NCBI RefSeq assembly: GCF_001640025.1
Contig: NC_031671.1
Location: 1,860,001 to 1,924,000, forward strand
Reading direction: 5' to 3'
Length of the DNA stretch: 64,000 nucleotides
From: Sugiyamaella lignohabitans
Lineage: Eukaryota > Ascomycota > Dipodascomycetes > Dipodascales > Trichomonascaceae
The first letter of the stretch is position 1. Every line of letters starts with the position of its first letter. A program made the position numbers and the translations under genes. A model generated the notes under the pieces. That model made no database searches, was not told the DNA's origin, and saw nothing but the letters and a program-made list of their open reading frames with translations. This document shows positions 13,922 to 63,548 of the stretch, one piece after another.

Positions 13922-14055
13922 GCCTCCGGCGGCTGGGGCTCTGCCCCAGACCCCGTGGCTCCTCTCGCTCCGCTCGAGTCGTTACGTCTGTGGTTCAGAA
14001 ATCTCCTCCGAAGCAGGAGCAGTGGGGTGTGGGGCGCAGCCCCAGCTGCCGGACA
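13922..14055. repeat. GC palindromic element 1
   Basis: First copy from the left, 134 bp, just after ALB1. The right arm is mutated at its end (CTGCCGGACAC). The left arm meets an interior with CTCGCTCCGCTCGAG. Confidence 0.85.
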
Positions 14056-15171
14056 CATGTTTGGGATTGGATCGGTGTACGATAGGATCTCTTGTTTGAT
14101 ATCAGTCTTGATCAAGAGAAGCTACTTCTCGACGACGGTTCTGATGCTAACATTGACGATATCTGAATGTTGGTGGTGAGAGAACAAGCCACTTGCTACC
14201 ATGACTATATCTGACGAATGATGTTGAAAGATTAGACATGTTATACCATCAAGATGTACTGGTTGATCCTCACCATAGAGTTTTCATTACTTAGTGCTCT
14301 TAGAAGACCACCCACCAATAATATAACCAATATACACCATGTAGAGTAGAGGTGGGTAGTGAAATTCTTTTTGGCAAGACTCTGAAATCGGTTAGATTCT
14401 TCAACCATATTCAACTCGCCATGGAATGTGTATCGAAGGCTCCCAAGATTTGAGTTTACAAATATCTCAGGTTGGCAGTACAATTAGAGATATACTGTGG
14501 CCTTTACATATAAATACGAGTTAACGATCACCATCAGCCTATCCTGTTGGTTTTATCAACTATCTCCCCTCCCTGAAGTCTGGTTTACTAGATTATTTTT
14601 TTAACCAAACCAGTCGTTTTAGCAGCTCATCTTTCTTTCTTCCAATGGCTACATCTCATATCACACAATTGTCATATGGCTCTCAGAGTTAATGTGTTGT
14701 GAAATTGGTATCGCATTCCAGAGTATGAAGCAGGCTTTAAAATTTCTATGATAACATGACCGTAAGCACTAGGGTTCTGGGAATATAAGAAACGGCAAAA
14801 TAACTAAACTGTAAGGTCAAATAGTATTTTCCCAATCGAGGCCTAGTGGGTAGGCCTATAGAATTTCTCAGTGGTCCTTAATGTATCGGGGATTATTCAT
14901 ATTGTTTCTAGATCAAAGCCAGCTTCTCTGTTTCCTGTCAAATCGTCATATAGTTCGAAAGGCGCAAGTATGCCACTTCGTGCTCTTTACTGCGAGCCAG
15001 ACTCTGTTTATCGGATCGGTGCTTGGTAATACTGGATTTATCATAACGAGTTATTAAATGGAAACTAGAAATGTTGGAGTGGAACACGAAGCTATAGGCA
15101 CTTGCATTAAGGGTAACTTTTTCCATATGTTCGTTCTATTATTATATATAAGAGATCGCCTTTCTTATTTT
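14056..15171. other. Gene-poor AT-rich stretch
   Basis: No supported gene. The minus-strand frames at 14241-14483 and 14938-15126 have no conserved features. TATA-like runs occur near 14500 and 15143. Confidence 0.5.
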
Positions 15172-15466
15172 TGTTGACTGCTAGATTGTTGATGGCACAT
15201 TAGTAGAAAGGTTAGGGTCCAGCAGTCTCACACTTGATACTTTTTCGCTTCTGTTTCTCTCCCGTTCTTCTCTTTACTTCGTTTATAAGAGAAGAAGCGC
15301 GCCTGAGTACACCAATCCTTGAGTAGTATTAACTGGAATAGGTATGTTATATGTTAATTGTAATACACCTCGTTTATAAGAGAAGAAAGCACGCCTGGTA
15401 CACCAGTCCCTGAGTTGTATTAATTGAATAGCTATATACCGGCGACTGGCATACGTGCAGTCAACA
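15172..15466 (+). repeat. 5' LTR (295 bp)
   Basis: Longer than the 3' LTR because a segment around CGTTTATAAGAGAAGAA is present twice, 91 bp apart (15280 and 15371). Confidence 0.85.
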
Positions 15467-15512
15467 GATCAAGAGTCACAAGTTTAAAGTTTATTAGAAC
15501 CTCGGAGACAAG

Positions 15513-16705
15513 ATGTCACCAAATAATAGCGCCGATCAGATACAGGCACCTTCATCTTCTTCCAGCGGAGGCGAGGCTCCTGGTCGAAACGAAGTCCCTT
15601 ATGATACTGCGGTTGAGATTATCGAAACAGTCTCAAGGTTCAACTACATGAAAGACGGTAAAGTTCACAGTTTCGAAGTGAAGCATTTCGTTGATCTGGA
15701 AGAGCTAAACACAGTTAATTATTCTACCAAGGAAAGTGAGATTTATCATCATGATTGTAGAGGGTTTCTATCAACATATTGGTAATAGTGCATATGCTAT
15801 TGCAGAGCAGGGAACTGTTGCCGAGACATTGATGACCATAAATAGGGATGAATTTTTCAAGTATGCAACTTTGCAGAAAGAACGAGCTAAGAAGATGATG
15901 AACTTCAATTACGGTGTATTGGGTGACAAAGTCAGGCCTCGTAAAGCTGTGGATGACACAGTATTCATGAGGGTGAAGAATGAGATTTTCCAACGGGCAT
16001 TGGCAAAACTTCATACTCATACTGAGAATGATTACGAAATTGAAGACGCTCTGAGCCAAATCTTCCTGGCAAGCTACCTCAAGGTTAATCTATTTGCCCC
16101 ATTGAAGAAAGCTATCCTGAAAATACCGAGCGCATCAGCCAGTGAATTATTGAACACTGAAGATTGTTTAAAGTTTTTACACGTGAAAGAACTTTCATAT
16201 CAGAGCTTTGTCACATTGCAAACAATCCATAGGTTGTCAGAAGTGGGAGATAAAATGACTACTGGTCTACGACACCGTGAGCATTTGAGAATATCTCAGG
16301 AAGTAGCAGAACTGCTTAAGGACTTCTACTCCAAAGAGAATACCAAAGCAGAAACGTTGCTTCATAGTATCATCATGAATGGTATCAACGCACTCAAAGC
16401 CGACTATCCCAACATCAAAACCCCGTTGCCTAATGGATTGGAATTGATTTGCTCCAACAAGAAAATCGATATGGAAAAAGCAGCCGGGTATGCAAACGAT
16501 TATGTGAATTACGTAAAACAGGTTGGAGACGAAATACTTAAAACGAGTTGGAGACGAAATAGTCGAGAGTAAAATGGCCGATCCAGCACCCGCTACGAAA
16601 TATGTCAGACACACGCAGGCAGCAAGCGTTAATCAACCAACTAAGGTCAATGGGAATAAGAAACCAACAAACACCAGCCAGATCAAGCAGAGATCAGTTT
16701 ATTAA
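15513..16705 (+). pseudogene. Gag-like ORF with two frame disruptions
   Basis: The start MSPNNSADQIQ is Ser-rich like yeast Gag N-termini. The first frame (15513-15785) overlaps a second frame (15736-16572) that is shifted by +1, so a single-base indel or a +1 frameshift near 15,700-15,740 is needed. The second frame is mostly helical and charged. Near its end a 25 bp tandem duplication (GTTGGAGACGAAATA at 16522 and again at 16547) shifts the frame again; the frame after it continues to 16705 with a Lys/Asn/Thr-rich tail. Undoing both changes would give about 390 residues. Gag identity is inferred from the LTR context and composition, not from a recognised domain. Confidence 0.65.
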
Positions 16706-18303: not shown

Positions 18304-18443
18304 TGCCTCCGGCGGCTGGGGCTCCGCCTCAGACCCTGGTTGCTCCTGCTTCGCAGGAGTTGATGTGGACTCCCCGACGTAACGACTCGAGCGAAGCGAG
18401 AGGAGCCACGGGGTCTGGGGCGGAGCCCCAGCCGCCGGAGGCA
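18304..18443. repeat. GC palindromic element 2
   Basis: Complete, 140 bp. The left half carries the CTCCTGCTTCGCAGGAG hairpin and the right half CGAGCGAAGCGAG. Confidence 0.9.
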
Positions 18444-18641
18444 CACCGGTCGTCCCCTACCCTCCCCTGAGCGGAGATATGGTCCGCGCATATGCAGGGT
18501 CGGCCACATGTTGCCATATTTAGCGACAGTTAATATATGTGCTTATTTCTGGATTAGGCGGTGCCAAAAATAACCCTGCATAGAGTTTAAAGCAGGTTTT
18601 CTAAAATTAAACTAAGTTGCAGGGAGGGTAGGGGACGACCG

Positions 18642-18775
18642 GTGGTTTGGGTTCTGTCCCCAGACCCCGAGGCTCTTCTCTCTTCTCTCAGGTCGGTTCC
18701 GCCAGGAGTACCCTGTCAACTTCTGCTTCGCAGGAGCAACCAAGGTCTGGGGCGGAGCCCCAGCCGACGGAGGCC
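18642..18775. repeat. GC palindromic element 3, degenerate
   Basis: The left arm has lost its outer TGCCTCC end and reads TTTGGGTTCTGTCCCC; the right arm ends CCGACGGAGGCC. It is followed at 18850-18895 by a GGC-rich run. Confidence 0.7.
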
Positions 18776-19077: not shown

Positions 19078-19172
19078 GCTTCGCTCGAGTCGGTTTCTAG
19101 GGAAGTCGCCAGTCAACTCCTGCGAAGCAGGAGCAACCAGGGTCTGGGGCGGAGCCCCAGCCGCCGGAGGCA
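19078..19172. repeat. GC palindromic element 4, right part
   Basis: The right arm and inner hairpins are intact, but the left arm is replaced by GGCGGCGGCGGGGGTG. Confidence 0.75.
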
Positions 19173-19746: not shown

Positions 19747-19887
19747 TGCCTCCGGCGGCTGGGACTCCGCCCCAGACCCTGGTTGCTCCTGCTTCGCAGG
19801 AGTTGACTGGTGACTCCCCTAGAAACCGACTCGAGCGAAGCGAGAGGAGCCACGGGGTCTGGGGCAGAGCCCCAGCCGCCGGAGGCA
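19747..19887. repeat. GC palindromic element 5
   Basis: Complete, 141 bp; one left-arm change (GGGACTCC for GGGGCTCC) and GGGGCAGAGCCCC in the right arm. Confidence 0.9.
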
Positions 19888-20200: not shown

Positions 20201-20322
20201 TGCCTCCGGCGGCTGGGGCTCCGCCCCAGACCCTGGTTGCTCCTGCTTCGCAGGAGTTGACAGGGGTTCGTTCGCTAAACCGACTCGAGCGTAGCGAGAG
20301 GAGCCCCGGCCGAAGGGGGCAC
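20201..20322. repeat. GC palindromic element 6, damaged right arm
   Basis: The left arm is intact; the right arm jumps from GAGGAGCCCC to GGCCGAAGGGGGCA and lacks the GGGTCTGGGG block. Confidence 0.85.
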
Positions 20323-20605: not shown

Positions 20606-20746
20606 TGCCTCCAGAATCCGGGGCTCCACTCCAGACCCTGGTAGCTCCTCTCGCTTCGCTCCAATCGTTGTGCGAACGGTCCCCTGTCAACTCCTGCGAA
20701 GCAGGAGCAACCAGGGTCTGGGGCGGAGCCCCAGCCGCCGGAGGCA
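20606..20746. repeat. GC palindromic element 7
   Basis: Both arms are present; the left arm is mutated (CCAGAATCCGGGGCTCC). The inner order is the reverse of element 2, so this copy is in the opposite orientation. Confidence 0.9.
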
Positions 20747-23738: not shown

Positions 23739-23878
23739 TGCCTCCGGCGGCTGGGGCTCCGCCCCAGACCCTGGTTGCTCCTGCTTCGCAGGAGTATGGC
23801 TGGGTCCGAGCCGCTAACGACTCGAGCGGAGCGAGAGGAGCCGGGGGGTCTGGGGCGCAGCCCCAGCCGCCGGAGGCA
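23739..23878. repeat. GC palindromic element 8
   Basis: Complete, 140 bp; right arm has GGGGCGCAGCCCC and an unusual GGGGGGTCTGG. Confidence 0.9.
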
Positions 23879-25552: not shown

Positions 25553-25614
25553 CCGACTCGAGCGAAGCGAGAGGAGCAGCGGGGTCTGGGGCGGAGCCCC
25601 AGCCGCCGGAGGCA
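25553..25614. repeat. GC palindromic element 9, right half only
   Basis: Begins at CGACTCGAGCGAAGCGAG and runs to GGAGGCA; no left arm is found nearby. Confidence 0.85.
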
Positions 25615-26234: not shown

Positions 26235-28196
26235 ATGGCGGAAGCGCATGAGTCGTACGAGTTTCGCGAGACGAGCTCATGTCCCTCGATAAATATAGGG
26301 ACGGGTTCTGAGAGATCAGGGATGGAGCTTGAAAGTTCGTTTGGCACGATATACACCGATGTCACAGATGGACAGGACGATGATCAGTCTGTAATTCGAA
26401 ATATTAATTCAAGTGTGGACTACAGCCGGGGTTCTCAGTGGGTCGAGAACCGGAACCAGATGAAGAATGAGAACAGGAACCCCACGAAGAACGAGAACAG
26501 CAGGTCCGGAATCATAAACAAGAATGCCAGCTATAGCGACTATAATGGCAGCTCTAGAGCAGTAACTCAATACGATACTGATAGTAATATTGGAGATATG
26601 AAGAGCAGTTCACTGTCACAGCTGTTAAAAGGTGATGTATCGTGGTCACCACTGCGCAGTGAGACCGGGTTGTCGTACGTACAAGAGACATCGACACCTG
26701 TGTCAGAAAAAAGCATCCAAAGTACTTTAAACGATCCAATTCTCCAACAGAGTACTCCAGAACACAAATATGGTAGTCCTGTGACAGGATCCAAAAGCCC
26801 CAGACGTGTTTTGAAGAGTGTTAGTCCTAATATTGTAGCTAGAAGAGCCATACACCGAACAAAACCAGTAGTGAGACACAGTCCACACCACCTAAGATCC
26901 AGAAACAGCATCTCTCGCTTTCATCGTTCGTTCGAAGTCGAAGGACCAGTTATTGTCAGTCCCAGACATACGGTAAACATTGTGCGAGAAGCTTCTCAAT
27001 GCAGTCTCTCCCGGGAACAAATACACTACCTGCGAACGCGGCAGCAGCAACAGCAGCAGAAAAACGAGTCCCAAAACCCAATATCAATAAACAGATCACA
27101 AACACCCTCTTCTTCGATCGCAGACAGCTCAAGCACCAGTTTCACAGGGTTTGTAAAACGGCGACCACGAGTCGATTCGAGCCTTCACTCGTCACCACCA
27201 GTACCAAACTACGCCAATCTTCTCCTGAGAAACAGGCCCCATCTTTCAAACACATCTGGAGACATTTCTAATTCAGATGGATCCTTCCAGTCGCACTTCT
27301 ACTCGCATTCCTCTTCGTTCAACCAGCAACAGCATCAATCATACCAATCATACCAATCATACCAATCACGTCAACAATACCAACAATACCAACAGTATCA
27401 ACCATACCAATCACACGACTCATACCAACAATATCAATCACATCAATCATATCAACCACGCAATTCAACACACCAAAACTACCCAACAGAAGCTTCTGAC
27501 AATTACAGCCAATATGACGACTCATCCATCCTCACCGACAGCAGCTACTACACACCGTCGTACGACCAGACCGACTCGATGATGTCTCAGCAGGAAAGCT
27601 ACTACTCACAACCGCAACCACAACCACAATCACAGCCTTCTGATAGCAATAACTGGCAGGAAGCACCGCCACTGTTCATGAACCCCGACCTCCCGTCAAT
27701 TCTCTCATCGTACCTACAACTGAGTTTCAACTTTGGAATGATGTCGCTGTTAATATACTCGATATGGATCTTCCTCATAACTGTGCAGCACGACGTGGAG
27801 AACAAAATCCAGGAATACTCTGCCGACATTCTAGCAGAAATAGCCCAGTGCTCAAAAGAATACATCGGTAACAATTGCATGCCCCACAAGCGAGTGCCAG
27901 CCCTCGAAACGACCTGTAACAACTGGGAAAAGTGTATGAACCAAGACCCCATGCTCATTGGCCGTGCACGAGTCAGCGCCGAAACATTTGGCGAGATCAT
28001 CAACAGCTTCCTCAACCCCATCGGCCTACGATCCATGTGCTTCCTCATCCTCGCCTTCATCGGTTCCTTTATCCTCGTCAACCTCTCCCTCTCGCACCAC
28101 CCCCACAGCGCCCGCACTCCCAAAACCAAACGACCCCGTCGCAAACCCCCAGCGCAACCGGTCGTCATCTTCACCACCCCACGCACCTCACGTTGA
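26235..28196 (+). CDS. BRL1: Brl1/Brr6-family nuclear envelope protein
   Basis: Brl1 and Brr6 are integral nuclear-envelope proteins that help nuclear pore complex assembly and membrane homeostasis. The C-terminal 160 residues show the family layout: a membrane segment GMMSLLIYSIWIFLITV (about 500-517), a lumenal stretch with four cysteines (CSKEYIGNNC and CNNWEKC) that form disulfides in the family, and a second membrane segment CFLILAFIGSFILVNLSL (about 601-618), then a basic tail. The N-terminal 490 residues are low complexity: Ser/Asn-rich, then a Tyr-Gln-Ser repeat (QSYQSYQSYQ) encoded by imperfect CATACCAAT-type repeats at 27330-27480. At 653 residues it is longer than Saccharomyces Brl1 (471); the extra length is the low-complexity region. 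Single exon. Confidence 0.88.
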   Translation: MAEAHESYEFRETSSCPSINIGTGSERSGMELESSFGTIYTDVTDGQDDDQSVIRNINSSVDYSRGSQWVENRNQMKNENRNPTKNENSRSGIINKNASYSDYNGSSRAVTQYDTDSNIGDMKSSSLSQLLKGDVSWSPLRSETGLSYVQETSTPVSEKSIQSTLNDPILQQSTPEHKYGSPVTGSKSPRRVLKSVSPNIVARRAIHRTKPVVRHSPHHLRSRNSISRFHRSFEVEGPVIVSPRHTVNIVREASQCSLSREQIHYLRTRQQQQQQKNESQNPISINRSQTPSSSIADSSSTSFTGFVKRRPRVDSSLHSSPPVPNYANLLLRNRPHLSNTSGDISNSDGSFQSHFYSHSSSFNQQQHQSYQSYQSYQSRQQYQQYQQYQPYQSHDSYQQYQSHQSYQPRNSTHQNYPTEASDNYSQYDDSSILTDSSYYTPSYDQTDSMMSQQESYYSQPQPQPQSQPSDSNNWQEAPPLFMNPDLPSILSSYLQLSFNFGMMSLLIYSIWIFLITVQHDVENKIQEYSADILAEIAQCSKEYIGNNCMPHKRVPALETTCNNWEKCMNQDPMLIGRARVSAETFGEIINSFLNPIGLRSMCFLILAFIGSFILVNLSLSHHPHSARTPKTKRPRRKPPAQPVVIFTTPRTSR

Positions 28197-28204
28197 CACC
28201 CGTC

Positions 28205-28342
28205 AGCCTCCGGCGGCTGGGGCTCCGCCCCAGACCCCGTAGCTCCTGCTTCGCAGGAGAGGACGTGGGACCCCCTCGCAACGACTCGAGCGCAGCGAGA
28301 GGAGCAGCGGGGTCTGGGGCGGAGCCCCAGCCGCCGGAGGCA
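28205..28342. repeat. GC palindromic element 10
   Basis: Fills the gap between the convergent BRL1 and RAI1 stops, 9 bp after BRL1. The outer left end reads CAGCCTCC. Confidence 0.9.
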
Positions 28343-29799: not shown

Positions 29800-30207
29800 T
29801 ATTCTATCCCTATCTCCTTTTTCTTTCTTTCTTTCCACTCCCTCCTCCACTTCACGAACATCAGAAACTTTCAGCCGATCTATCACGTGACCACATTTGG
29901 GGTGGACGGGGAGGGCGGTTGTGCCTCCGGCGGCTGGGGCTCCGCCCCAGACCCCGCTGCTCCTCTCGCTGCGCCCGAGTCGTTGCGAGGGGGTTCCCAG
30001 TCCTCTCCTGCGAAGCAGGAACTACGGGGTCTGGGGCGGAGCCCCAGCCGCCGGAGGCACAACCCCCACCCCCAAGACCCGTCTCACGTGACGGATGTTA
30101 CCCGGCCCGTGAACCTCCTTATCGGAGCCAGTGGCCAAGTTGTAGCACCCCGCATATTAGAACCCGGATTGCGAGAGAGAAAGAGCGATTGTGGGCAGAA
30201 ATTGAGG
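29800..30207. promoter_or_regulatory. Divergent RAI1-VPS5 promoter
   Basis: About 400 bp between two ATGs. Two TCACGTGA sites (29883-29890 and 30084-30091) flank the GC element on either side, and TTACCCGG follows at 30098-30105. CACGTG is the core bound by Cbf1-type factors and TTACCCG by Reb1 in yeasts. Confidence 0.6.
29922..30059. repeat. GC palindromic element 11
   Basis: Complete, inside the RAI1-VPS5 promoter. The palindrome continues outward: GGTTG on the left and CAACC on the right. Confidence 0.92.
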
Positions 30208-32351: not shown

Positions 32352-32406
32352 TGCCTCCGGCGGCTGGGGCTCCGCCCCAGACCCCGTGGCTCCTGCTTCG
32401 CAGGAG
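32352..32406. repeat. GC palindromic element 12, left half
   Basis: Left arm plus the CTCCTGCTTCGCAGGAG hairpin, 36 bp after the VPS5 stop; no matching right arm before element 13. Confidence 0.85.
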
Positions 32407-32499
32407 AAATTCACTGATCCCCTGGCGACGACTGGACCCTGATCGACCATTCAGGGTCCTGATCACTCTAGGAAAATAAATGCTTGTACCCGACCTTGC

Positions 32500-44894: not shown

Positions 44895-45235
44895 CATAAT
44901 ACTATCACAACTATCACTATTACTATCAACTACTAGTATCACTATTACTGTCGACTACTATTATCAACTACTAGTATAACTACTACTATCAACTACTATT
45001 ATCAACTACTAGTATTGCTATCGACTACTAGTATTACTACTACTATCAACTACTATTATCAACTACTAGTATTACTACTACTACTATCAACACTACTAGT
45101 ATTAACTAAGTACTAGTATTACTGTCAACTACTTCTAGTAACAATATTACTAGTATAAGTATTTACTACTACTATCAACTAGTAGTATTACTATCAACTG
45201 CTATCACTGCTATTTGCTACTAGTCAATACTGCTG
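44895..45235. repeat. ACTACTATCA/ACTAGTATT minisatellite
   Basis: Irregular tandem units mixing ACTACTATCA, ACTACTAGTATT and ATTACTACT over about 340 bp, ending about 260 bp upstream of the PQ-loop gene start. Confidence 0.9.
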
Positions 45236-46752: not shown

Positions 46753-48975
<2,223 letters not shown>

Positions 48976-49069: not shown

Positions 49070-49208
49070 TGCCTCCGGCGGCTGGGGCTGCGCCCCAGAC
49101 CCCCCAGCTCCTCTCGCTTCGCTCGAGTCGGGCGTCGACGGTGCCGGCAACTTCTGCGAAAAGCAGAAGCAACCATGGTCTGGGGCGGAGCCCCAGCCGC
49201 CGGAGGCA
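49070..49208. repeat. GC palindromic element 24
   Basis: Complete, between convergent PAP1 and RKM4. Left arm GGGGCTGCGCCCC; inner hairpin CTTCTGCGAAAAGCAGAAG is altered on both sides in step. CACCCG lies just outside. Confidence 0.92.
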
Positions 49209-50902: not shown

Positions 50903-52403
<1,501 letters not shown>

Positions 52404-52428: not shown

Positions 52429-52565
52429 TGCCTCCGGCGGCTGGGGCTCCGCCCCAGACCCCGTGGCTCCTGCTTCGCAGGAGTGGTTGGGACCGTCGAC
52501 GAACCGACTCGAGCGCAGCGAGAGGAGCAGCGGGGTCTGGGGCGCAGCCCCAGCCGCCGGAGGCA
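52429..52565. repeat. GC palindromic element 27
   Basis: Complete, 25 bp after the HAT2 stop. Right arm has GGGGCGCAGCCCC. Confidence 0.92.
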
Positions 52566-53814: not shown

Positions 53815-53877
53815 TGCCTCCGGAGGCTGGGCTCCGCCCCAGACCCTGGTTGCTCCTCGAGCGAAGCTCGAGGAGTG
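53815..53877. repeat. GC palindromic element 28, degenerate left half
   Basis: Reads TGCCTCCGGAGGCTGGG, then CTCCGCCCCAG; the hairpin is CTCCTCGAGCGAAGCTCGAGGAG in two parts. It lies 25 bp from the stop of the importin gene. Confidence 0.8.
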
Positions 53878-53901: not shown

Positions 53902-56900
53902 TTAGTGTGGGTTTTGGAGAAGCGACGTGTGAATCTCTCGCTGGTGTGGGGAGAGACTTTGAACGAGCGTTTGTGTGTACTCGGGGCCTGAGGTCGCAAG
54001 CTCGTTGACGATTTTTGTATACATCGTTCGGATGTCGATAGAGTCAATGGCGGCATCGAGGCTAGGAGGCAGCTCTTCCTCGATTTGTGATGACTCGTCT
54101 TCTACCCTGGCAAAACTGTATGGCTCGGTCACGAACTCAAATGTGTTTTGCGTGGGTTGTTCAGCAGAATTGGTGCTAGTTGTCAGTGGTGGTCGTACTA
54201 ATTCCACTTTGTTGATGATGAATTGGAAGAGGGCAATGCGTTGTTCCAACGACACGAGGTTGTCATCTCGTAGCGAAACTACTTGCAATGCTGCTCCAAT
54301 GTTAACCTTGAGTTCGCGACCATAAATAGTGGCTCTTGTCCATTCGGACAACAGCTCGTCAAACATGTTTACTAAACTGTTGTTGTTGGCAGTAAGACTT
54401 CGTAAAGCGTCTCGGTATAGACATGCCACTATCATGTTCAAGCTCCGTCCAGGCATCTGAATGACAAATGGAATCAAATCGGTGATGGAATATGCTGCCG
54501 AGTCTGGAATGGCGATCAAGATGAACTCGATAAGCTGCGATGCATTCTTCTTGACGTGTAATTCCACCTGGGGCTCATTGACGGCGTAGTGGATCATCTG
54601 GAAGATCTTTTCAAGTCTCTCTTTAGTGATTCCTGCTCCTCCATATGCCACAAAGTTGGTCGTACTTAATATAATGGCCTCGATACTGGCTTCTGGTTGC
54701 GTCTGGAATGCCTCGTAGAAACTGTTAAACACACTATTCCAGAGTCCTTCTGATACTGACCGATTGGTCAAAATGATAATGTCAACCAGTTCTGCCATCT
54801 CTGGATACAGATCCACCTCACCACTGTCAAGTACAGGTTTAACCATGTTGGCAATGGTCTCTTCTAATCCAGAAACTTCTTGTCCGTAATCCTGGAATGA
54901 GTTCAAAAGTGTCGATAAAGTTCCCAAAATATGCTGAGCATTATCAGCTTTTTCGTCTAAAAATTCATAGTCAATTTGCCCGCCACGGGCCTGAGTTTCT
55001 TCCTGGTTCTCTCGTAACTCATCCAAAATACGGAGCAACTGACTCGACAAGTGTCGGCATAACTTGACTGCAAATGGAATCAACTCTCTTGAAAACGTCG
55101 ATACAAGCACTTCCATGACATTGGCAAGCTTTTCCGACACAACGTCGGTATCATACAATTCAAGAATCTTCTCCATTGTATGCTGAATAGTGGGTGATTG
55201 TGTCTGGACAACAAAGTCATATTTCAAAAGAGCCTCGAGTGCAATAGCAGCGTTGATTTTCGTCAGAACATCGTCGGTTGAATCTAAACACTTGAGGATA
55301 TTCTCACAAATTGGTTTCAACACATCCTCACCAAAACCGATTATTGAAGCATAAGTAACTATAAGTTGGAACGACCGTGAATACAGAAACAGTTGGTTCG
55401 ATTTGTGGAATATTGGTAAAATGTAGTTGTTAATGAACTTACCCATCTGATTAAGAATGATTGGACTTCGTGCTGTTGGAGGTGCCTCGGCAATAGATAT
55501 CATTATCTGTAACGCAGCATCAACATCTAAACAGCACTCCAAATCAGTCAGGTTATTGAGTTGAATCTCGAGAATATTATTTACAGTCATTAGCACTCCT
55601 GGTAGTGCTACAGAGGCTCGTCGAGCCACCAGTGCCTGCACAAAAGTTCCTGCTGTCACCTTGGTGCTAAACAGAAACTCTTGCTGGTCTTCTTGTTCAT
55701 AGAAAAACTGGTCTGGTTCGTACTGGTATGAATACAAATCCCTCTCTTTCATGCGCAAATTTGAAAATATAATCTTGTTTAGAATCATATCAAGTTCGCT
55801 CAGAACTATTGTCCATAATGACTCGATTTGAAGACAGTTTACAAAGAACAGAATAATCAGTCTTTGAGCCCTAGATCTAGCCAGAGCAACTTCTGGTGAT
55901 GCTGTCTGTTTCAACGAAACGGTTCGTGGAAGTCCGCGAACTCGATCTATGTACATTTTGCACACTTCAGGTGCAAACGATGTGATGAATAACTGGGAGA
56001 ATTCGTGATATATGGCGTGCTCCTGAACAAGGTCCTGGTTAGGGCTTCGTTTAGTCAGCTCAGGGATTACTGAATATCTCACAAACAATAAGTTGACAAG
56101 CGTAAATGACCATTTATAACACTTTCTCCATGCTGCTAGCTCCAAAAGTCCCTGTCCTATGCTTACTGATGAAGAAGATCGTGAGTGTGATGCACTGTTT
56201 GGTCCACTGCCACCCCCAACAGTTGGCGAACCACTTGAACTCACGCTGCTAGCTCCAGCAGCGCTCTCTCCGCTGCCACTAGTATCCTCATCACCAACAA
56301 CAGTAATTACAGATATGAACAAGTTAAGCCACCTCTCCAACTGATTGCGATTCTGGAGCAATGGCGATAAATTAGACGCCGTGGCCTGTTTATACACCTT
56401 TAGAATTCGCCAGATAATCTCACCAGTGGTTTCCAGATTAGCCTGGTTCTCAGGAATTCCCTGGATCAGTGACATTCCCAATTCTACAAGCTTTGGAAGA
56501 AATGCTTCTATGATCTGATCTCTGTTTTCACTTGCCTTGTCGTGCCAGCGATACGACCGTAGCACCTCCACCAGACACAAAACCGCTATGTACACTTCTT
56601 TCGGGCTCGAACTGTCTAGCAGCTGTGATACAAACGGCAGCAGGCCAGGCCAGGCCTGTGGAAACGGTTCTGATGTGATAATAAACTGTAAAGCAGCTAC
56701 TAAAGGAGTCAATGCTGCGTGATGAGGGACAACTACTAGAGTATTCAGCAGTTTTTCTCTGAACAAGTTTCTCTGATCCACACTGAGCACCACAGGACCA
56801 CTAGCAACTCCGCCATGCTTCTCAATACTAGTACCACCCGCATTTGCATGATCGGAAAACGAGCTGTCCTGGCTATTACGGCTACCACTGCCGCCAGTAC

Positions 56901-57126
56901 CGGCCTCGATATTATTGCTCCGTCTGTTCCAACACTCGAAAATGTAGTTCTTGAGATACAAAGAAGCACTCATACACACGGACAAATCACCCGTCGAGCC
57001 AATAACATCCAGTAACGCAAAAACCAGACCGGGGTCCTTCCCAGCCTCAGCCAGCTGCTGCTCAGCAACCTGTCTGACCCCCTGATCCGCACTTAGCGTG
57101 TTCGCAAACACCTCTACCAACGACAT
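53902..57126 (-). CDS. NMD5: Importin-beta family karyopherin, Nmd5/Sxm1 (importin-7/8) type
   Basis: Nmd5 and Sxm1 carry cargo such as TFIIS, Hog1 and ribosomal proteins into the nucleus. The ATG at 57126 gives 1,074 residues (Saccharomyces Nmd5 1,048). The importin N-terminal HEAT repeats are seen in MSLVEVFANTLSADQGVRQ, AEQQLAEAGKDPGL and SASLYLKNYIFECWN. The rest is helical repeats; a Ser/Gly-rich loop sits near 330-375. The acidic C-terminal loop typical of importin-7/8 appears as VEDESSQIEEEL near residue 1020. The frame is open upstream, but that part only translates GC element 29. A probable 5'UTR intron holds that element. Choice between Nmd5 and Sxm1 is not certain. Confidence 0.82.
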   Translation of the reverse strand: MSLVEVFANTLSADQGVRQVAEQQLAEAGKDPGLVFALLDVIGSTGDLSVCMSASLYLKNYIFECWNRRSNNIEAGTGGSGSRNSQDSSFSDHANAGGTSIEKHGGVASGPVVLSVDQRNLFREKLLNTLVVVPHHAALTPLVAALQFIITSEPFPQAWPGLLPFVSQLLDSSSPKEVYIAVLCLVEVLRSYRWHDKASENRDQIIEAFLPKLVELGMSLIQGIPENQANLETTGEIIWRILKVYKQATASNLSPLLQNRNQLERWLNLFISVITVVGDEDTSGSGESAAGASSVSSSGSPTVGGGSGPNSASHSRSSSSVSIGQGLLELAAWRKCYKWSFTLVNLLFVRYSVIPELTKRSPNQDLVQEHAIYHEFSQLFITSFAPEVCKMYIDRVRGLPRTVSLKQTASPEVALARSRAQRLIILFFVNCLQIESLWTIVLSELDMILNKIIFSNLRMKERDLYSYQYEPDQFFYEQEDQQEFLFSTKVTAGTFVQALVARRASVALPGVLMTVNNILEIQLNNLTDLECCLDVDAALQIMISIAEAPPTARSPIILNQMGKFINNYILPIFHKSNQLFLYSRSFQLIVTYASIIGFGEDVLKPICENILKCLDSTDDVLTKINAAIALEALLKYDFVVQTQSPTIQHTMEKILELYDTDVVSEKLANVMEVLVSTFSRELIPFAVKLCRHLSSQLLRILDELRENQEETQARGGQIDYEFLDEKADNAQHILGTLSTLLNSFQDYGQEVSGLEETIANMVKPVLDSGEVDLYPEMAELVDIIILTNRSVSEGLWNSVFNSFYEAFQTQPEASIEAIILSTTNFVAYGGAGITKERLEKIFQMIHYAVNEPQVELHVKKNASQLIEFILIAIPDSAAYSITDLIPFVIQMPGRSLNMIVACLYRDALRSLTANNNSLVNMFDELLSEWTRATIYGRELKVNIGAALQVVSLRDDNLVSLEQRIALFQFIINKVELVRPPLTTSTNSAEQPTQNTFEFVTEPYSFARVEDESSQIEEELPPSLDAAIDSIDIRTMYTKIVNELATSGPEYTQTLVQSLSPHQREIHTSLLQNPH

Positions 57127-57128: not shown

Positions 57129-57330
57129 CTACACCCGAGTTAGCTCCAGATCCGGGAGGGGAGTCTGCCTCCGGCGGCTGGGGCTCCGCCCCAGACCCTG
57201 GTTGCTCCTGCTTCGCAGGAGATGTTGGGGAATCGCCCACGAAACGACTCGAGCGAAGCGAGAGGAGCAACCAGGGTCTGGGGCGGAGCCCCAGCCGCCG
57301 GAGGCACGTCTGCCCCCAGGAACCACTTAC
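57129..57330 (-). other. NMD5: Probable 5'UTR intron of the NMD5-like gene
   Basis: On the minus strand GGGGTAAGTGG starts the intron at 57330 and GAGCTAACTCGGGTGTAG ends it two bases before the ATG. No coding ATG exists upstream, so the intron would lie in the leader. Length 202 bp, of which 142 bp is GC element 29. Inferred from splice signals only. Confidence 0.55.
57165..57306. repeat. GC palindromic element 29
   Basis: Complete; outer flanks GGGGAGTC and CGTCTGCCCCC are partly complementary. Confidence 0.92.
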
Positions 57331-57960: not shown

Positions 57961-58106
57961 TGCCTCCAGTGGCTGGGGCTCCGCCCGCCCCAGACCCTGG
58001 TAGCTCCTCTCGCTTCGCTCGAGTCGTTTCGTCACCCGGTCCCGGCCATTCTCCTGCGAAGCAGGAGCAACCAGGGTCTGGGGCGGAGCCCCAGCCGCCG
58101 GAGGCA
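57961..58106. repeat. GC palindromic element 30
   Basis: Complete; left arm altered (CCTCCAGTGGC and a GCCC duplication). The palindrome runs outward as GGCGGGGGTG and CACCCCCGCC. Confidence 0.92.
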
Positions 58107-58214: not shown

Positions 58215-58988
58215 ATGAGTGCTGGTGGTGATAAGAGATCGATAAGTTTGAATAAGATAGTCATTTTCGGCGACTCGCTGACGCAGAAAGCTAATGAGCA
58301 AGATACGGGGTTCGGTCTGGTTCCGGCTCTTCAGGATCTGTATACCCGCAAGTTCGATGTTCTCACCAGAGGGTTTATGGGTTATACTTCAGCTCATGGT
58401 CGATATATGATCGACCCCATTCTCGATGCCGAACATCGTCCGAAAGACAATTGTACTGTAGAACTGCTGATTCTGTTCTGGGGGTCGAACGACTCTACTC
58501 TGGAAGAATGGCCGTCTCATGTGCCCATTCCAGACTATCTCGATAACATGCGATATATGATAAAAGCAGCCCAATCGCGAGGCATTTCCAGGATCATTCT
58601 GGTAGCCCCTGCTTTGTACGACGAAATTAAAGGGTATCCAGACAATTCGGTCATGAAGTTCCTCGAATATGGCCAGGCTCTTAAAACACTGACCTCCGAG
58701 TTCGATGTCGGGTTTATTGATCTGTGGCACGAGTTCACAGACTATCTCGGCTGGAAAGAAGGCGACCCCGTGCCCGGAAAACTTGGAGACAACTCGCCAA
58801 TCGATTTGGTCAACCTCCTTCCAGACTCTATCCATTTCAGCGGCGAAGCCTACCGCATCTACTACAACGCTCTCATCAAAGTCATCGACGACAAATTCCC
58901 CGACATCAAATCCGACAATCTCACGGAAATCATGCCTCCCTGGGACAGCATTCCTATCAAGGAGCTCCCAGACTGTTTGTGGAAGTAG
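58215..58988 (+). CDS. IAH1: Isoamyl acetate-hydrolysing esterase, SGNH/GDSL family
   Basis: Iah1 hydrolyses acetate esters such as isoamyl acetate. The ATG at 58215 gives 257 residues (Saccharomyces 238). The family blocks are present: KIVIFGDSLTQ (nucleophile Ser), GFMGYTSAHGRY (block II Gly), LFWGSNDST (block III Asn) and LLPDSIHFSGEAY (Asp and His). No signal peptide, consistent with a cytosolic enzyme. The frame continues upstream only to TTG. Confidence 0.92.
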   Translation: MSAGGDKRSISLNKIVIFGDSLTQKANEQDTGFGLVPALQDLYTRKFDVLTRGFMGYTSAHGRYMIDPILDAEHRPKDNCTVELLILFWGSNDSTLEEWPSHVPIPDYLDNMRYMIKAAQSRGISRIILVAPALYDEIKGYPDNSVMKFLEYGQALKTLTSEFDVGFIDLWHEFTDYLGWKEGDPVPGKLGDNSPIDLVNLLPDSIHFSGEAYRIYYNALIKVIDDKFPDIKSDNLTEIMPPWDSIPIKELPDCLWK

Positions 58989-58991: not shown

Positions 58992-59167
58992 TGCCTCCGG
59001 CGGCTGGGGCTCTGCCCCAGACCCCGTGGCTCGCTTCGCTCGTTCCGCCGGGAGTCCCTGATGTAACTAATACTACGAATACCGCTTCCGAGGGGGACCC
59101 CACGCAACGACTCGAGCGCAGCGAGAGGAGCAGCGGGGTCTGGGGCGTAGCCCCAGCCGCCGGAGGC
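58992..59167. repeat. GC palindromic element 31
   Basis: Complete but 176 bp, with extra interior DNA. It starts 4 bp after the IAH1 stop. The right end is GGAGGCT instead of GGAGGCA; CACCCG follows. Confidence 0.9.
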
Positions 59168-59781
59168 TGGTCTCCACCCGTCGGAGTTATGATTGGTCGT
59201 TTTAGGTAGCATGTACACGAAGCGGGTGTGTGCATTAGACGCCGCTGAGAAAGGCTTATCGGCGGGACGATCGTGTGGGGTACGGACCCCCCTGCGTCGA
59301 GGGGGGATATCTCGCTTCGGACTGCGTGGGGGTCGGTGGATAACATGTTGGATGTTGTCCGTCTTCCATGTTTTCAGTACCGGGTTCTGGAGTTTTTTTG
59401 ATCCAATTGACAGCTGTTGAGGGCAGTTGATTGGCACCAGTTGCTGGCTGCGATAGTGAGTTGTACAGAGTTTTTACCGCTGACTAACAGACTGAAAAGG
59501 TTGATTATTTTCATGGATGAAGTCTGGTGACTACTGACACCACTGAACTTATATCCCGGATTCTGATCCAGAATCTCGAAACCGCTGACGAAACGACCAC
59601 AATCCAACCTCAACCTCTGGGTTCCGGTGGCGACCGTCCATCTGCACGGCTGATAAGTGGAGAAACTCGAGGAGCCATCCCTGACGGACGTCGAACTCGA
59701 GCAACCTACCCCTAGCAAACGAGCCCGCGACACCAGCAACCGACCCACAAACCACCGGATCCTGCTGACCGGCCCGAAAAC
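59168..59781. other. Region upstream of the HFL1-like gene
   Basis: About 610 bp. A plus-strand frame at 59527-59715 has no recognisable features and ends before the HFL1-like ATG. Confidence 0.45.
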
Positions 59782-61500
59782 ATGACCTCCGACGGCACAG
59801 GACAGCCCGTGCACGTCACATTACCAGGGTAAGTGCAATGGCCCGTGAATTAGGGTGCTTGCCTCCGGCGGCTGGGGCGCTGCCCCAGACCCCGTGGCTC
59901 CTGCTTCGCAGGAGTTTTCGTCGGGCACCCACAAATCCGACTCGAGCGGAGCGAGAGGAGCAGCGGGGTCTGGGGCGGAGCCCCAGCCGCCGGAGGCAGA
60001 CCCCCAGAACAGTGGACTAACGGCTGGCAAAGGTATATCAGCAACATCACGGGTTTTTGTGCGTTTAGTGCGATAGTGATCTCGGTGATTTCGATTTATT
60101 ATCATTTGAAGAATTATAGGAAACCAGCCGACCAACGGCTGATAGTGAGGATCCAGTTGTTGCTGCCATTGTATGCGGTATCCAGTTGGGTGGGGTTGCA
60201 TTCCGAGACCGCAAGCAGTTTTCTGGATCCCATTCGTGAGATTTATGAAGCGTTTGTTATTTATACGTTTTTCACGCTATTGACTAATATTTTGGGCGGA
60301 GAACGAGACATTATCATTTCGACGTCGGGACGAGCGCCAAAACCGCTGATTACTCCGCTTAACTATATTTGGCCCGGAAACAAGGTGGATATCAGCGACC
60401 CACACACTTTCTTATTTATTAAGCGATGCATTCTCCAGTACACATGGATCAAACCGATTCTGTGTCTGGCCACTGTGATTCTCGACTGGTTCGGCAAATA
60501 CCGTGCCAATAGCATCTCTCTTGAGACGGGCTATGTCTGGCTGGCTATTATTTATAATATCAGCATCACCATCTCTCTGTACGCGCTGGCGTTGTTTTGG
60601 TACGTTTTGCTGGAAGACCTGAAACCTTATCGGCCACTTCCTAAATTCTTGTGCATTAAAGTGATTATTTTCTTCTCGTACTGGCAGGGGTTCATCCTGT
60701 CTATTCTGGCTGCTCTGGGGATGATTCCTGATAGCCACGATAGTAATATTGCCAATACCATTCAAAACAGTCTTATGTGTATTGAGATGCTTCCTTTTGC
60801 CATTGGCCATTGGGTAGCTTTCACATATAAAGACTATGCCACGTCGTCAATGATCGGGTTTGCCCGATTGCCTGTATATTATGCTATTCGAGACGCTCTT
60901 GGCACTGTAGACCTTGTGATCGATTTCATGTCGACGTTCTACGGCAGTTCATACGGGTACCGACAGTTTGATTCTGTGGAAGCCATCTTGGACCATCCGG
61001 AATCGGCGTCTCGTCGAGCGAGAATCATGGCTGGACTGAGATATAAGAACGGAGGCCGGTCGAAATACTGGCTTCCCCAGAAAAAGACCCCCAAGTACTC
61101 TGCCTTGTCGCCTAAACCCAGTGGAGATACCAGCACGAGTCTGATGACAGACAGTGTACGAAGTTATGGCGGAGTTTACGATACTAACAGCAGTTATGAA
61201 CCGTCTATTGGCAGCAGCGATTCGGAAGTGGCTGACCTGGAAGCACAAAACGACGCCCCCCAGTCGCTCGAGCTGCCCGATCAAGACCTCCAGGGCGACG
61301 AAAGTATCTACACCCAAGCCAAAAGACTGCGGTACGGCGACTATAACTATCCCGTCATCACAGTACGCGAGTCCATCCAGTACACGCCGGTCATCGACCG
61401 CCAGCTCGCTCGCGGCACGTCCACCACGCTCGCCGAAGAATACGAGTCGTTTGCTGGCCCGAACGACAGCGACAACGAGTCCACCGACGCGTTTCCCTAG
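59782..61500 (+). CDS. TMEM184/OST-alpha family membrane protein, YKR051W/Hfl1-like
   Basis: Fission yeast Hfl1 is a vacuole membrane protein that recruits Atg8; the Saccharomyces member is YKR051W. Exons 59782-59828 and 60033-61500 give 504 residues. Exon 1 encodes MTSDGTGQPVHVTLPG and joins YISNITGFCAFSAIVISVI, the first membrane helix. The donor is GTAAGT at 59829, the branch ACTAAC near 60016 and the acceptor AAAG at 60032; the 204 bp intron contains GC element 32. Family marks are YRKPADQRLIVRIQLLLP, LYAVSSWVGL and REIYEAFVIYTFFTLL, with GGERDII, then KPILCLATVIL and FSYWQGFILSIL. The last 160 residues are soluble, Ser-rich and acidic. Without splicing the first helix is lost. Confidence 0.88.
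59860..59998. repeat. GC palindromic element 32, inside the HFL1-like intron
   Basis: Complete, 139 bp of a 204 bp intron, leaving 65 bp. Left arm GGGGCGCTGCCCC. Confidence 0.92.
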
Positions 61501-61549
61501 CATGTCTGTACATACCACGAGATCCATTTGCATTCTACACACGGGTGTG

Positions 61550-61722
61550 TGCCTCCGGCGGCTGGGGCTCCGCCCCAGACCCCGCTGCTCCTCTCGCTTC
61601 GCTCGAGTCGGGCGTGGAGGGGTGACGGCACACGAGATGAGTTACTGGACTTCCCGAAGCCCGACTCGAGCGAAGCGAGAGGAGCAGCGGGGTCTGGGGC
61701 GGAGCCCCAGCCGCCGGAGGCA
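61550..61722. repeat. GC palindromic element 33
   Basis: Complete, 173 bp, between convergent HFL1-like and dehydrogenase genes. Here both halves carry the CTCGCTTCGCTCGAG type interior, so the whole element is more symmetrical than most. CGGGTG and CACCCG lie outside the two ends. Confidence 0.92.
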
Positions 61723-61754
61723 CAAGAGGCACCCGTTATATTTGTTTATAGACC

Positions 61755-62717
61755 CTAATTGTTTTCACCAGCTTCGCGTTTCTTGACAGCGTCGTTCTCG
61801 AAGTCGAGACCGGCGTGGGTGCGGAGAATGCCGTAGATTGAGGAGGCGTCGAGGTTTTTCTTGACGTCTGAGAGTTTTTCCGCTTCGTGGAGATGTTGTC
61901 GGGCTACGTCGAGGGTGGGGAGTTTGACTCCGTGTTCTTTGGCGAGACTGATGGCGTGGCCAGAATCTTTGAGTCCGTTCTGGACCGTGAAGTAGGGAGT
62001 GCCATTGGCACCGGGGTCGTAGATCCCGCCGCTGTTTTTCTGGAAATAGAGCCCCACTGTAGGACCAGCGAACTCTTGGGCCCATTCTGTCATGAGTTCG
62101 GGTGACACTCCGACCTTTTCACCGAGAACTTGGACCTCACCAGCCAACTCCATCAGGCCTACAATGAACACATTGCCGGTGATTTTCATGGCCACAGCTC
62201 TTGTCACATCGTCTCCGACATAGAAAATCTTTTTGCCCATGGACATGGCAAATGGTTCGAGCTTATCTACAGCCTCTTTATTGCCAGCAGGTACAAATAT
62301 CAGTTTCTTGGCTGCTGCAAACGGAGCAGCTCCAAACACAGGACTGGATATGAACGTGGCTCCTTGTTCGGTCACAAGCCCGTGATTCAGTTTCGAAGTA
62401 TCTGGATGAACAGTAGCACAGTCAACAATAATCTTTCCCTTGAGCTTGGGTCCAAGAGGAAGAACAGATTCTTTGACTGCCTGGATAATAGCATCGTCAC
62501 TGGACAACATGAAGAAAGTGATATCCGACTTGGCAACTACATCACTAATAGACTCGACTTGAGTTGCACCAAGATCTCTGAGAAATTTGCCCTTCTCATA
62601 AGTACGGTTATAGAAAACCAATGAAGGGTACTTATTTTCCTTGAGAAACTCCTGTAAATTCTTGGTCATAGGACTGCCCATGGCACCGAGACCGACCTGT
62701 ACATGCGTTAGATCCAT
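61755..62717 (-). CDS. Beta-hydroxyacid dehydrogenase, 3-hydroxyisobutyrate dehydrogenase-like
   Basis: NAD(P)-dependent oxidoreductase of the 6-phosphogluconate/3-hydroxyisobutyrate dehydrogenase superfamily. The ATG at 62717 gives 320 residues. The cofactor loop is VQVGLGAMGSPMTKNL near the N-terminus, with the YNRT segment after strand 2, the substrate-site motif SSPVFGAAPFAAAKKL (usually DAPVSGG) and the catalytic Lys in MKITGNVF (usually KxxxN). No clear mitochondrial presequence, so it may be a cytosolic relative rather than the valine-degradation enzyme. Substrate unknown. The frame runs upstream to a GTG only. Confidence 0.88.
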   Translation of the reverse strand: MDLTHVQVGLGAMGSPMTKNLQEFLKENKYPSLVFYNRTYEKGKFLRDLGATQVESISDVVAKSDITFFMLSSDDAIIQAVKESVLPLGPKLKGKIIVDCATVHPDTSKLNHGLVTEQGATFISSPVFGAAPFAAAKKLIFVPAGNKEAVDKLEPFAMSMGKKIFYVGDDVTRAVAMKITGNVFIVGLMELAGEVQVLGEKVGVSPELMTEWAQEFAGPTVGLYFQKNSGGIYDPGANGTPYFTVQNGLKDSGHAISLAKEHGVKLPTLDVARQHLHEAEKLSDVKKNLDASSIYGILRTHAGLDFENDAVKKREAGENN

Positions 62718-63406
62718 GACTTTACTTTCCACAAATCCGCTTTACACATCCCTGAGCTGTTTACAATTCAATTTCTCGTTTTGTTTCAATTGACTGAACA
62801 GCATCCCAGCGACAATTGACCAGAACCGACCCTCACTCCCTTTGTTCCCGAAGCGAATACAACCAGGTCTGGGCGGAGCCCAGCTGCAGGAGGCATTGAC
62901 CCCTCCCCGAGAAAAAATTAAAAACTTACGAAACCGACTTGTAAAGAGGACATTATTGCACAAAAACCAGATATTAGATCAAACAGAATTGGCAAGGTAG
63001 ACTACGAGACCGACTGGCGAGAAGCTTGTCTTTTATTGCTCGAAGCAGGAACATCAATCCGACATCGGAAAATCGCGGCTGCATGAACACCCGTCACCCC
63101 GCATTCTGGATCTTCACCGGTGCTTCATTCTTATCGCAAACATTTCTACTCTCTCATTTCAAATACAATTTTTCTTGGCTTGTAGTTCACATGACGAAAA
63201 AAATTGTGTTCGATTTGCTCGCTGCACAAAATCCAGACTCTGATCCGACCCGGCAAACAACTCTTCCGACCCGGGCTGGTCCCGCCAGATGATTTATCCG
63301 CGTGCATACTAAAATATTATATAATGATTATAAAAGTTTGGGGCACGGCTCGAGCACCGTTTACAGCTGAATCGGCCCGATACGGTGGTGCTACTACCCC
63401 TGGACC
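62718..63406. other. Intergenic region with GC element remnant
   Basis: Promoter side of the dehydrogenase gene. No supported gene; the frame at 63026-63292 lacks features. Confidence 0.45.
62849..62895. repeat. GC palindromic element 34, remnant
   Basis: Degenerate right arm only: CAGGTCTGGGCGGAGCCCAG and then CTGCAGGAGGCA. The GGGG and CCCC steps are both one base shorter, so the stem still pairs. Confidence 0.75.
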
Positions 63407-63548
63407 TGCCTCCGGCGGCTGGGGCTCCGCCCCAGACCCTGGTTGTGCTCGCTTCGCGAGCGACTCGGGGCCGGGGCACGTCTCCCGAGCAGCCTCCTAC
63501 AAGGCAGGAGCCACGGGGTCTGGGGCAGAGCCCCAGCCGCCGGAGACA
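63407..63548. repeat. GC palindromic element 35
   Basis: Complete; interior hairpin is CTCGCTTCGCGAG. Right end CGGAGACA; outer flanks ACC and GGT pair. CACCCG lies outside. Confidence 0.9.

Follow-up and report, generated by a model that had tools for sequence, protein, structure and literature searches.

REPIN-like palindromic elements ringed by GC gradients in the genome of the yeast Sugiyamaella lignohabitans: candidate starting points of recombination

Introduction

What are the short GC-rich palindromes that recur between the genes of the yeast Sugiyamaella lignohabitans, and how are they related to the composition of the DNA around them? The question is raised by a stretch of 64,000 nucleotides on contig 3 (bases 1,860,001-1,924,000; hereafter the window, meaning the whole of this stretch) of the 15.93 Mb genome, which is assembled in four contigs. 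The species belongs to the Trichomonascaceae, and the genes found are those expected of a budding-yeast type of fungus; for the poly(A) polymerase encoded in the window, Kockiozyma suomiensis (70%) and Trichomonascus vanleenenianus (72%) are the top-scoring named matches among the 120 listed of 4,329. An earlier note on the window had described about 36 loci, some 1.4 kb apart, and had proposed a MITE-like transposon (miniature inverted-repeat transposable element), a structured RNA, or a chromatin or terminator element. Here, we show that the repeat family is real and large. We further report a gradient of GC content around its members, a new and unexpected finding that, as far as sequence can tell, points to recombination.

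Abundance of the elements

Most statistics below come from a 364 kb sample consisting of the window, C1:200001-400000, C2:500001-550000 and C4:500001-550000 (C, contig). Loci were called from a 33-nt arm with at most 6 mismatches, arms less than 300 bp apart were merged, and two inverted arms with a total length below 200 bp were counted as a full element. In the window, the terminal 18-mer TGCCTCCGGCGGCTGGGG has 21 exact occurrences on the forward strand and 23 on the reverse, against a dinucleotide-model expectation of about 1e-6; genome-wide it has 5,378 (2,695 + 2,683), whereas the reversed control word was found 0 times. Exact matches to the B module, an internal block of the arm described below, number 3,145 genome-wide (1,561 + 1,584; controls 0). 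The inverted arms, their coordinates and their abundance are therefore as the earlier note had described them, as is the family itself, but its count is not: the window holds 28 merged loci from 13921 to 63548, 24 of them full elements, at a mean spacing of 1.73 kb (18 kb onward), plus at least one further degenerate arm at 53815. The sample as a whole contains 136 merged loci and 84 full elements. Full elements are typically about 140 bp long, with 61 of the 84 measuring 130-149 bp; the earlier note had given mostly 130-145 bp. Scaled by exact 18-mers, the genome total is roughly 3,600 loci, an estimate that is rough because the sample is denser than the genome average (552 vs 338 exact 18-mers per Mb).

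No gene would fit into so short an element, and the earlier note had likewise seen no coding capacity. Reading frames do stay open through them (385 of the 504 frames of the 84 elements), which we ascribe to composition, and a search for the motif in proteins, aimed at spurious open reading frames (ORFs), found nothing. Across the sample, element-rich, GC-rich domains alternate with element-free, AT-richer domains, on contig 1 over tens of kb. No locus was found by the 33-nt arm search in the first 13.9 kb of the window; bases 1-13900 are AT-richer, with a GC content at third codon positions (GC3) of about 0.42, and the element-rich bases 20000-64000 have a GC3 of 0.51-0.56.

GC content around the elements

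Silent sites become GC-richer toward the elements. Analysed codon by codon, GC3 is 0.663 within 0-200 bp of the nearest arm, 0.558 at 200-400 bp, 0.460 at 400-800 bp, 0.409 at 800-1600 bp and 0.383 at 1600-5000 bp. An exponential fit gives an amplitude of 0.38, a decay length of 394 bp (bootstrap 322-488, 111 genes) and a baseline of 0.38. Circularly shifting the elements 20 times, with every fifth codon sampled and arm-containing genes kept in, gave a GC3 difference of 0.010 ± 0.021 and never more than 0.048, compared with about 0.28 for the real positions.

The gradient follows the side of the gene on which the element lies. Excluding genes with arms inside, the 3' third is GC-richer at silent sites in all 23 genes with an element at the 3' end only (mean +0.171, p = 2.4e-7), in 11 of 13 genes with elements at both ends (+0.083) and in 27 of 41 genes with no element within 2 kb (+0.018). 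The last 100 codons reach a GC3 of at least 0.55 at 32 of 41 occupied gene ends and at none of 41 ends without an element within 2 kb, where the highest value is 0.54. Therefore, the elements did not simply pick GC-rich ends of a kind found elsewhere in the sample.

Composition changes beyond silent sites as well. GC declines with distance from 0.52 to 0.39 in non-ORF DNA and from 0.56 to 0.50-0.52 at codon position 1, and at position 2 it is 0.42-0.44 out to 5 kb and 0.38 beyond. On a larger scale, GC in 10-kb windows is higher where elements abound, even with the elements masked, and per-gene GC3 correlates with arm density (ρ = 0.68, 121 genes). Sparse regions show a slight GC3 rise of their own near gene ends (0.40-0.42 within 200 bp vs 0.36-0.40 to 1.6 kb).

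Recombination and gene conversion

In a published model, GC-biased conversion tracts that start at break sites are reported to give an exponential decay of GC3 (PMC3020949). Because the GC3 excess here decays exponentially from a point, as this break-site model predicts, we favour the reading that recombination, accompanied by GC-biased gene conversion, may start from these intergenic palindromes, REPIN-like in build, as fixed points, and assign it a probability of about 0.5. The arms would extrude as hairpins or a cruciform, or would attract breaks in some other way, and the breaks would be repaired by gene conversion favouring G and C. Over long periods, conversion would raise GC3 and intergenic GC near the elements and so build GC-rich domains. 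Occasional repair from another copy, by ectopic conversion or local copying, would keep the arms alike and shift spacers between nearby loci. The genome encodes a Spo11-type domain, as do many eukaryotes, which makes meiotic breaks possible and proves nothing further. Many elements are probably old residents, since the gradient must have needed long to form; their decayed spacers agree with this.

Several observations weigh against this reading. Only 5 genes have an element solely at the 5' end, and the expected reversal of the trend is weak among them (-0.055), 3 of the 5 following it. Genes of dense domains without an element within 500 bp also lean toward their 3' end (+0.051, 8 of 8), and element-rich domains could be recombination-hot for another cause. 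Closest to the arms in dense domains, the 0-50 bp bin has a lower GC3 (0.612, 183 codons) than the 50-100 bp bin (0.698). The dose-response, scored on 64 of the 136 loci, is weak: GC3 is 0.523 at 15 single-arm loci and 0.583 at 49 loci with at least two arms (p = 0.02), and neither the correlation with arm mismatches (ρ = -0.20, p = 0.11) nor that with arm number (p = 0.13) is significant. Two isolated loci have a modest GC3 (0.43 and 0.50). Finally, the 13-nt G-rich and C-rich skirts that flank the arms (see below) fall outside the model's account.

If the elements do start recombination, the genome would hold thousands of sequence-defined hot spots that have lasted long enough to shift silent sites from 38% to about 66% GC, and would allow ideas on the hot-spot paradox and on the origin of GC-rich domains to be put to the test.

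Element architecture and similarity between copies

Each element consists of two inverted arms around a spacer of about 32 nt. Reading inward, an arm comprises a T, the tag GCCTCCGGCGG (without mismatch in 147 of 168 arms), a main hairpin CTGGGGC-NNN-GCCCCAG, ACCC with a short link, and either an A or a B module. The A module is a hairpin, most commonly CTCCTGC-TTC-GCAGGAG, with the alternative perfect stems GCTCGC/GCGAGC, GCTCCGC/GCGGAGC and, once, CTTCTGC/GCAGAAG. The B module is CTCCTCTCGCTNCGCTCGAGTCG, a conserved 23-mer with a single free position (T37 G22 C9 A7 of 75). In an alignment of 75 arms anchored on the first 11 bases, which are constant by construction, the 11 bases past the free position are conserved in 73-75 arms; anchored instead on its last 9 bases, the module is complete in 70 of 76 arms. 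Since 57 of the 84 elements combine one CTCCTGC-type A arm with one B arm, the element has a polarity. Single strands fold as one long hairpin (RNA z = -14.7, one element), and the DNA fold is very stable (z = -13 and -11, two elements).

The free base of the B module forms the middle of a possible GNA triloop, for example at 52505-52527 of the window. GCGNAGC is a very stable DNA mini-hairpin, and TNC, which is GNA read on the opposite strand, forms the loop of the main hairpin in 134 of the 168 arms. Selection for GNA-triloop DNA hairpins was nonetheless set aside, as the bacterial loops read do not follow this rule and the B module alone folds weakly (z = 0.49).

Arms and spacers differ sharply in conservation. 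Pairwise identity is 0.94 and 0.93 for the two 33-nt arm ends and 0.61 for spacers, the latter including a few module bases; shuffled spacers give 0.53. The spacer between modules has a median of 32 nt (quartiles 31-38, after trimming 56 and 52 nt from the element ends). A simple recent burst does not fit, because arms 93-94% identical enclose spacers at 61%. The likeness of the arms may be kept by selection, by an enzyme that requires them, or by conversion between copies. The arms are flanked by skirts of about 13 nt, G-rich to the left of the element and C-rich to its right. The two skirts match each other weakly as inverted sequences (z up to 2.9), and no direct repeat was seen in them across the 84 elements.

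Some copies are nevertheless siblings. The spacers of the elements starting at 28205 and 29922 (inverted relative to each other, 93%), at 43398 and 43730 (92%) and of two pairs on contig 4 (91%) are nearly the same, and of 15 positions in their flanks 3-8 agree, against backgrounds of 5.2 and 5.4 (standard deviation 2.2-2.3). More generally, copies less than 10 kb apart are more alike, by 8.6 matches as compared with -0.05 ± 1.39 in permutations (0 of 200; 40 elements of contig 1). Local copying or ectopic conversion would each produce both patterns.

These siblings bring in the rival that survives best, a non-autonomous mobile element, MITE- or REPIN-like, whose enzyme recognises the hairpin arms and prefers the 3' ends of genes, the needs of that enzyme conserving the arms. 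The precise inverted ends are what it would predict, as are sibling spacers, inverted ones included, between flanks near background similarity. Convergent gaps of up to 1.5 kb are also longer with one element (median 401.5 bp, n = 12) than without (141 bp, n = 19), and one copy, at C1:368264-368405, reads as intronic, lying between GTAAGT and TACTAAC...CAG in a gene whose second half matches PF22669. However, no target-site duplication was detected in the 84 elements at lengths of 2-9 bp and offsets of -4 to +4: the top z values (5.4 and 3.0) belong to the conserved ends of the arms, where real and shuffled match rates agree to within 0.01, and the highest value elsewhere is 2.7 among hundreds of tests. 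Likewise, the genome yielded no match to the DDE_3 transposase, with a working control, or to Y1_Tnp (RAYT), whose control was positive in 5 of 14 genomes; hAT and Helitron_like_N also went unmatched, with their controls equally silent, and MULE, PIF and piggyBac were not searched. Moreover, spacers decay and arms do not, and ectopic conversion between existing copies would also yield siblings. Of the MITE-like transposon proposed earlier, the inverted termini and the sibling spacers with unrelated flanks thus stand, while target-site duplications, a transposase match and a uniform likeness of arms and spacers are missing. We consider this explanation a realistic possibility that falls short of being probable. 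If it is right, REPIN-like elements exist in a nuclear genome.

Position relative to genes

Elements are concentrated behind stop codons. Using ORFs as a proxy for genes, which misses introns and small genes, we compared the loci with 50 rounds in which they were placed at random in intergenic DNA within 8 kb, leaving aside the 14 of 136 loci that lie inside ORFs; a more permissive set of 387 coding ends did not enter the counts. Of 112 distances from a stop to the next locus (ORFs of at least 150 codons), 37 are 0-75 bp, whereas 6.6 are expected. Genes at least 200 codons long were grouped by their surroundings as dense, intermediate or sparse. An arm is found no more than 100 bp from the stop in 32 of 63, 3 of 25 and 1 of 30 of them, respectively, and no more than 200 bp upstream of the ATG in 20 of 63, 0 of 25 and 0 of 30. 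Under the recombination reading, placement behind stops would reflect tolerance of a 165-bp insert there, or open DNA.

The same placement suits the idea that the elements are passengers that settle at gene ends where recombination hot spots exist or chromatin is open already, so that the GC gradient belongs to the place. S. cerevisiae is not known to have such elements. Its GC3 is nonetheless reported to fit the same kind of gradient model (PMC3020949), and the weak dose-response with arm quality, together with the occupation of intergenic gaps near gene ends, is consistent with a passenger role. On the other side, no unoccupied gene end reaches a GC3 of 0.55, the gradient lies on the element's side in all 23 genes with an element at the 3' end only, and the upstream regions of genes are described as the preferred place of breaks in S. 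cerevisiae and in sexual Candida relatives (PMC3020949). We therefore regard passengers as rather unlikely.

An RNA-level role would have the elements serve as hairpins in 3' untranslated regions or as bidirectional terminators or stabilisers, kept by selection on the transcript. The excess of loci within 75 bp of stops supports the structured RNA or terminator of the earlier note, as do the frequent elements within 100 bp of stops in dense domains and the bacterial counterparts, which also lie behind stops. Yet genes in sparse domains manage without, there are copies upstream of genes and one in what looks like an intron, and the A and B ends show no clear polarity toward the gene (end facing the stop codon: A 14, B 10, unclear 5). 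Rfam, at gathering thresholds, matched none of the elements; its only match is a 5S rRNA gene outside them. Compensatory change is nearly absent from the main hairpin, whose stem equals the consensus in 144 of 168 arms, with 15 carrying one uncompensated change, 1 a compensated two-sided change and 8 being more decayed. The earlier note had listed stem changes mirrored in the partner strand. For GGGGCGCAGCCCC and GGGGCAGAGCCCC this does not hold, since the 3-nt loop differs and the stem is the consensus; for the A hairpin it does, with several two-sided stem variants. Because the quoted GGGGC-NNN-GCCCC variants are loop variants and compensation in the main hairpin amounts to 1 in 168, covariation is not strong evidence and the RNA argument built on it is weak, which leaves an RNA-level role improbable.

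A local mutation bias to G and C near hairpin-forming DNA, without recombination, would likewise make silent sites and non-ORF DNA GC-richer toward the elements, but an exponential reach of 0.4 kb is in our judgement long for a structure-linked effect and the bacterial motif has no clear GC gradient; we hold this to be improbable, slightly more so than an RNA-level role.

Elements of the window

From left to right, the first locus of the window is a full element at 13921-14057, an outlier left of the dense domain. It is followed by a full element at 18304-18443 with an extra right arm ending at 18775 (locus 18304-18775), a right arm on the minus strand at 19140-19172 whose left side shows only part of a B module, a full element at 19747-19887, an element with a truncated right arm at 20201-20321, and one at 20606-20746 whose right arm is intact (20714-20746) and whose left arm is decayed (from about 20606). 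A full element at 23739-23878 precedes a minus-strand right arm after a B module at 25582-25614, with no left partner within the 150 bp examined. The first of the spacer siblings, a full element at 28205-28342, lies 8 bp past the stop of ORF 26235-28196; its inverted sibling is the full element at 29922-30059, in dissimilar flanks.

Gene-end placement recurs through the middle of the window. Locus 32352-32640 joins a left arm at 32352, 35 bp past the stop of 30208-32316, to a full element at 32501-32640. The minus-strand gene 33516-35558 is bracketed by two full elements, one at 33338-33477, 38 bp past its stop, and one at 35676-35807, 117 bp upstream. Another full element, at 36495-36654, sits between the stop of 36697-38238 (minus) and a single 5S rRNA gene (Rfam RF00001; 36328-36448, minus), which stands among protein genes and adjoins the element. 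Locus 38859-39490 combines a full element (38859-38995) with a wider arm pair (39203-39490) located 25 bp from the stop of 39516-40322 (minus). A plus-strand left arm at 41093-41125 has no recognisable partner within the 150 bp examined, and a full element follows at 42133-42269. The sibling pair 43398-43542 and 43730-43873 (locus 43398-43873) has a common spacer (92%) and no common flanks, its first member lying 47 bp past the stop of 42469-43350. At 46777-47028, a left arm at 46777, 62 bp past the stop of 45497-46714, accompanies a full element at 46900-47028. Separately, a long imperfect tandem array of CAACTACTAGTAT-like units occupies 44900-45220 between ORFs.

The full element at 49070-49208, 12 bp from the stop of 49221-50666 (minus), carries the two-sided stem variant CTTCTGC...GCAGAAG. 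A widely spaced arm pair (50970-51318) lies within the 5' part of ORF 50931-52403, and 25 bp past the stop of this ORF stands the model element (52429-52565). It comprises, in this order, the tag (52430-52440), main hairpin (52441-52457), A hairpin (52467-52483), spacer (52484-52504), B module (52505-52527), hairpin (52537-52553) and inverted tag (52554-52564). A degenerate left arm on the plus strand at 53815-53877, with the hairpin CTCCTCGAGC-GAA-GCTCGAGGAG, falls outside the 28 counted loci. The remaining full elements are at 57166-57306, 39 bp upstream of 53902-57126 (minus); 57961-58106, with a slightly decayed left arm; 58992-59168, 3 bp past the stop of 58215-58988; 59860-59998; 61550-61722, between convergent ORFs with stops at 61500 and 61755; and 63407-63548.

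Similar repeats in bacteria and viral contigs

The arm is not confined to the yeast. A search of the collected bacterial and archaeal genomes with a 31-nt word of the arm gave a single exact match. It lies in a Desulfovibrionaceae metagenome-assembled genome, 1 nt past a TAA stop, and 33 nt agree there with the yeast consensus. In a set of 149 genomes of Desulfovibrionia, GCCTCCGGCGGCNNGGG has 2,384 matches, compared with 17 for the reversed word; they fall in 91 genomes, 9 of which hold at least 90 copies. A stem of at least 6 bp stands behind the tag in 10 of 24 loci from 24 genomes, the rest looking by eye like coding sequence. At 30 loci taken from the 433 matches of two copy-rich genomes, such a stem is present in 31 of 32 arms; 26 of the 32 lie 2-55 nt past the stop that closes an open frame 100 codons or longer, with 5 farther away and 1 without such a stop, although some of these frames may be chance, the DNA being GC-rich. 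The near-far GC3 difference is small here (+0.033, positive in 14 of 26; 28 upstream genes), which contrasts with the yeast gradient. RAYT was rejected as the driver of the bacterial repeats, as Y1_Tnp occurs in 6 of 9 genomes with at least 90 copies and in 62 of 140 others, which is not a significant difference.

Among viral contigs (viral_contigs), a hairpin of at least 5 bp is enclosed by 36 of 123 tag-to-GACCCC matches as opposed to 5 of 62 matches to the reversed pattern, some contigs being near-duplicates. Inverted doublets of 121-128 bp occur on six of them, L127, L147, L162, L167, L177 and L188 (L127 and L188 nearly the same); judged by eye, L147 looks alphaproteobacterial, and its ORFs include phage- or gene-transfer-agent-like ones. 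Two other arrangements were seen. On L057 (Pseudomonas silvicola plasmid p2), a longer repeat starting GCCTCCGGCGGCCAGGGG at 8790 and 20470 was found in 8 places by BLAST, and these two copies have common sequence for at least 150 bp downstream. On L109, L113, L123, L141 and L145 (viral_contigs), tag, hairpin and GACCCC are followed, by eye, by a T-containing, A/T-rich stretch, which may be an intrinsic terminator of another bacterial group.

Pure chance is in our view unlikely, because two separated tags around a variable hairpin and the place behind stops agree, and identical tags and hairpins behind bacterial stop codons call for a common cause. Shared descent, transfer or convergence may each account for it. 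The boldest combination, namely that REPIN-like sequences specify recombination initiation genome-wide in a eukaryote and recur in bacteria through one hairpin-handling machinery or transfer between domains, strikes us as speculative and improbable. Term searches of the open-access literature found no published name for the tag-hairpin-GACCCC repeats and no REPIN-like elements of nuclear genomes, and that literature likewise yielded neither the arm sequence nor REP- or MITE-like elements of yeasts or other eukaryotes recognisable as this family.

Comparison with known systems

A REPIN consists of two inverted palindromic units around a spacer. Repetitive extragenic palindromic (REP) sequences and REPINs resemble the yeast elements in their inverted palindromic units, less conserved spacer, many copies and extragenic location near 3' ends (PMC3733652, PMC3116915), and the whole yeast unit, like a REPIN, may fold as one large hairpin. 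REP tags are given as GTAG or CGTC; specific transposases are hypothesised to move the GTAG types, and the CGTC types apparently lack one (PMC3733652). In contrast, the yeast elements are nuclear, have the tag GCCTCCGGCGG...GACCC, which is neither GTAG nor CGTC, have units of 55-60 nt with two hairpin modules, come without a match to a Y1-type (RAYT) gene, and are ringed by a GC gradient. The Desulfovibrionia and viral-contig repeats have the same 11-nt tag, hairpin and GACCCC, the former lying behind stops and the latter forming inverted doublets as in the yeast. Desulfovibrionia arms are, however, mostly single, with more variable stems and loops, no A or B modules noticed and no clear GC3 gradient.

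MITEs are likewise short, non-coding and numerous, with inverted termini, whereas the yeast elements have no target-site duplication or transposase match and combine conserved arms with a free centre. The GC clusters of yeasts are mitochondrial and differ in sequence from the present elements. These clusters are reported as short GC-rich palindromes scattered between genes (PMC5499181, PMC4478555), a likeness in form; the elements studied here, however, lie on chromosome-size contigs among nuclear genes. Short inverted repeats of S. cerevisiae are also described near gene ends, but those near poly(A) sites are A/T-rich and apparently not one repeat family (PMC6420913). What break hot spots with GC-biased conversion have in common with the yeast family is a silent-site GC gradient, here centred on the element. 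No family membership is defensible on these comparisons; the element works like REPINs in its build and like break hot spots in its footprint.

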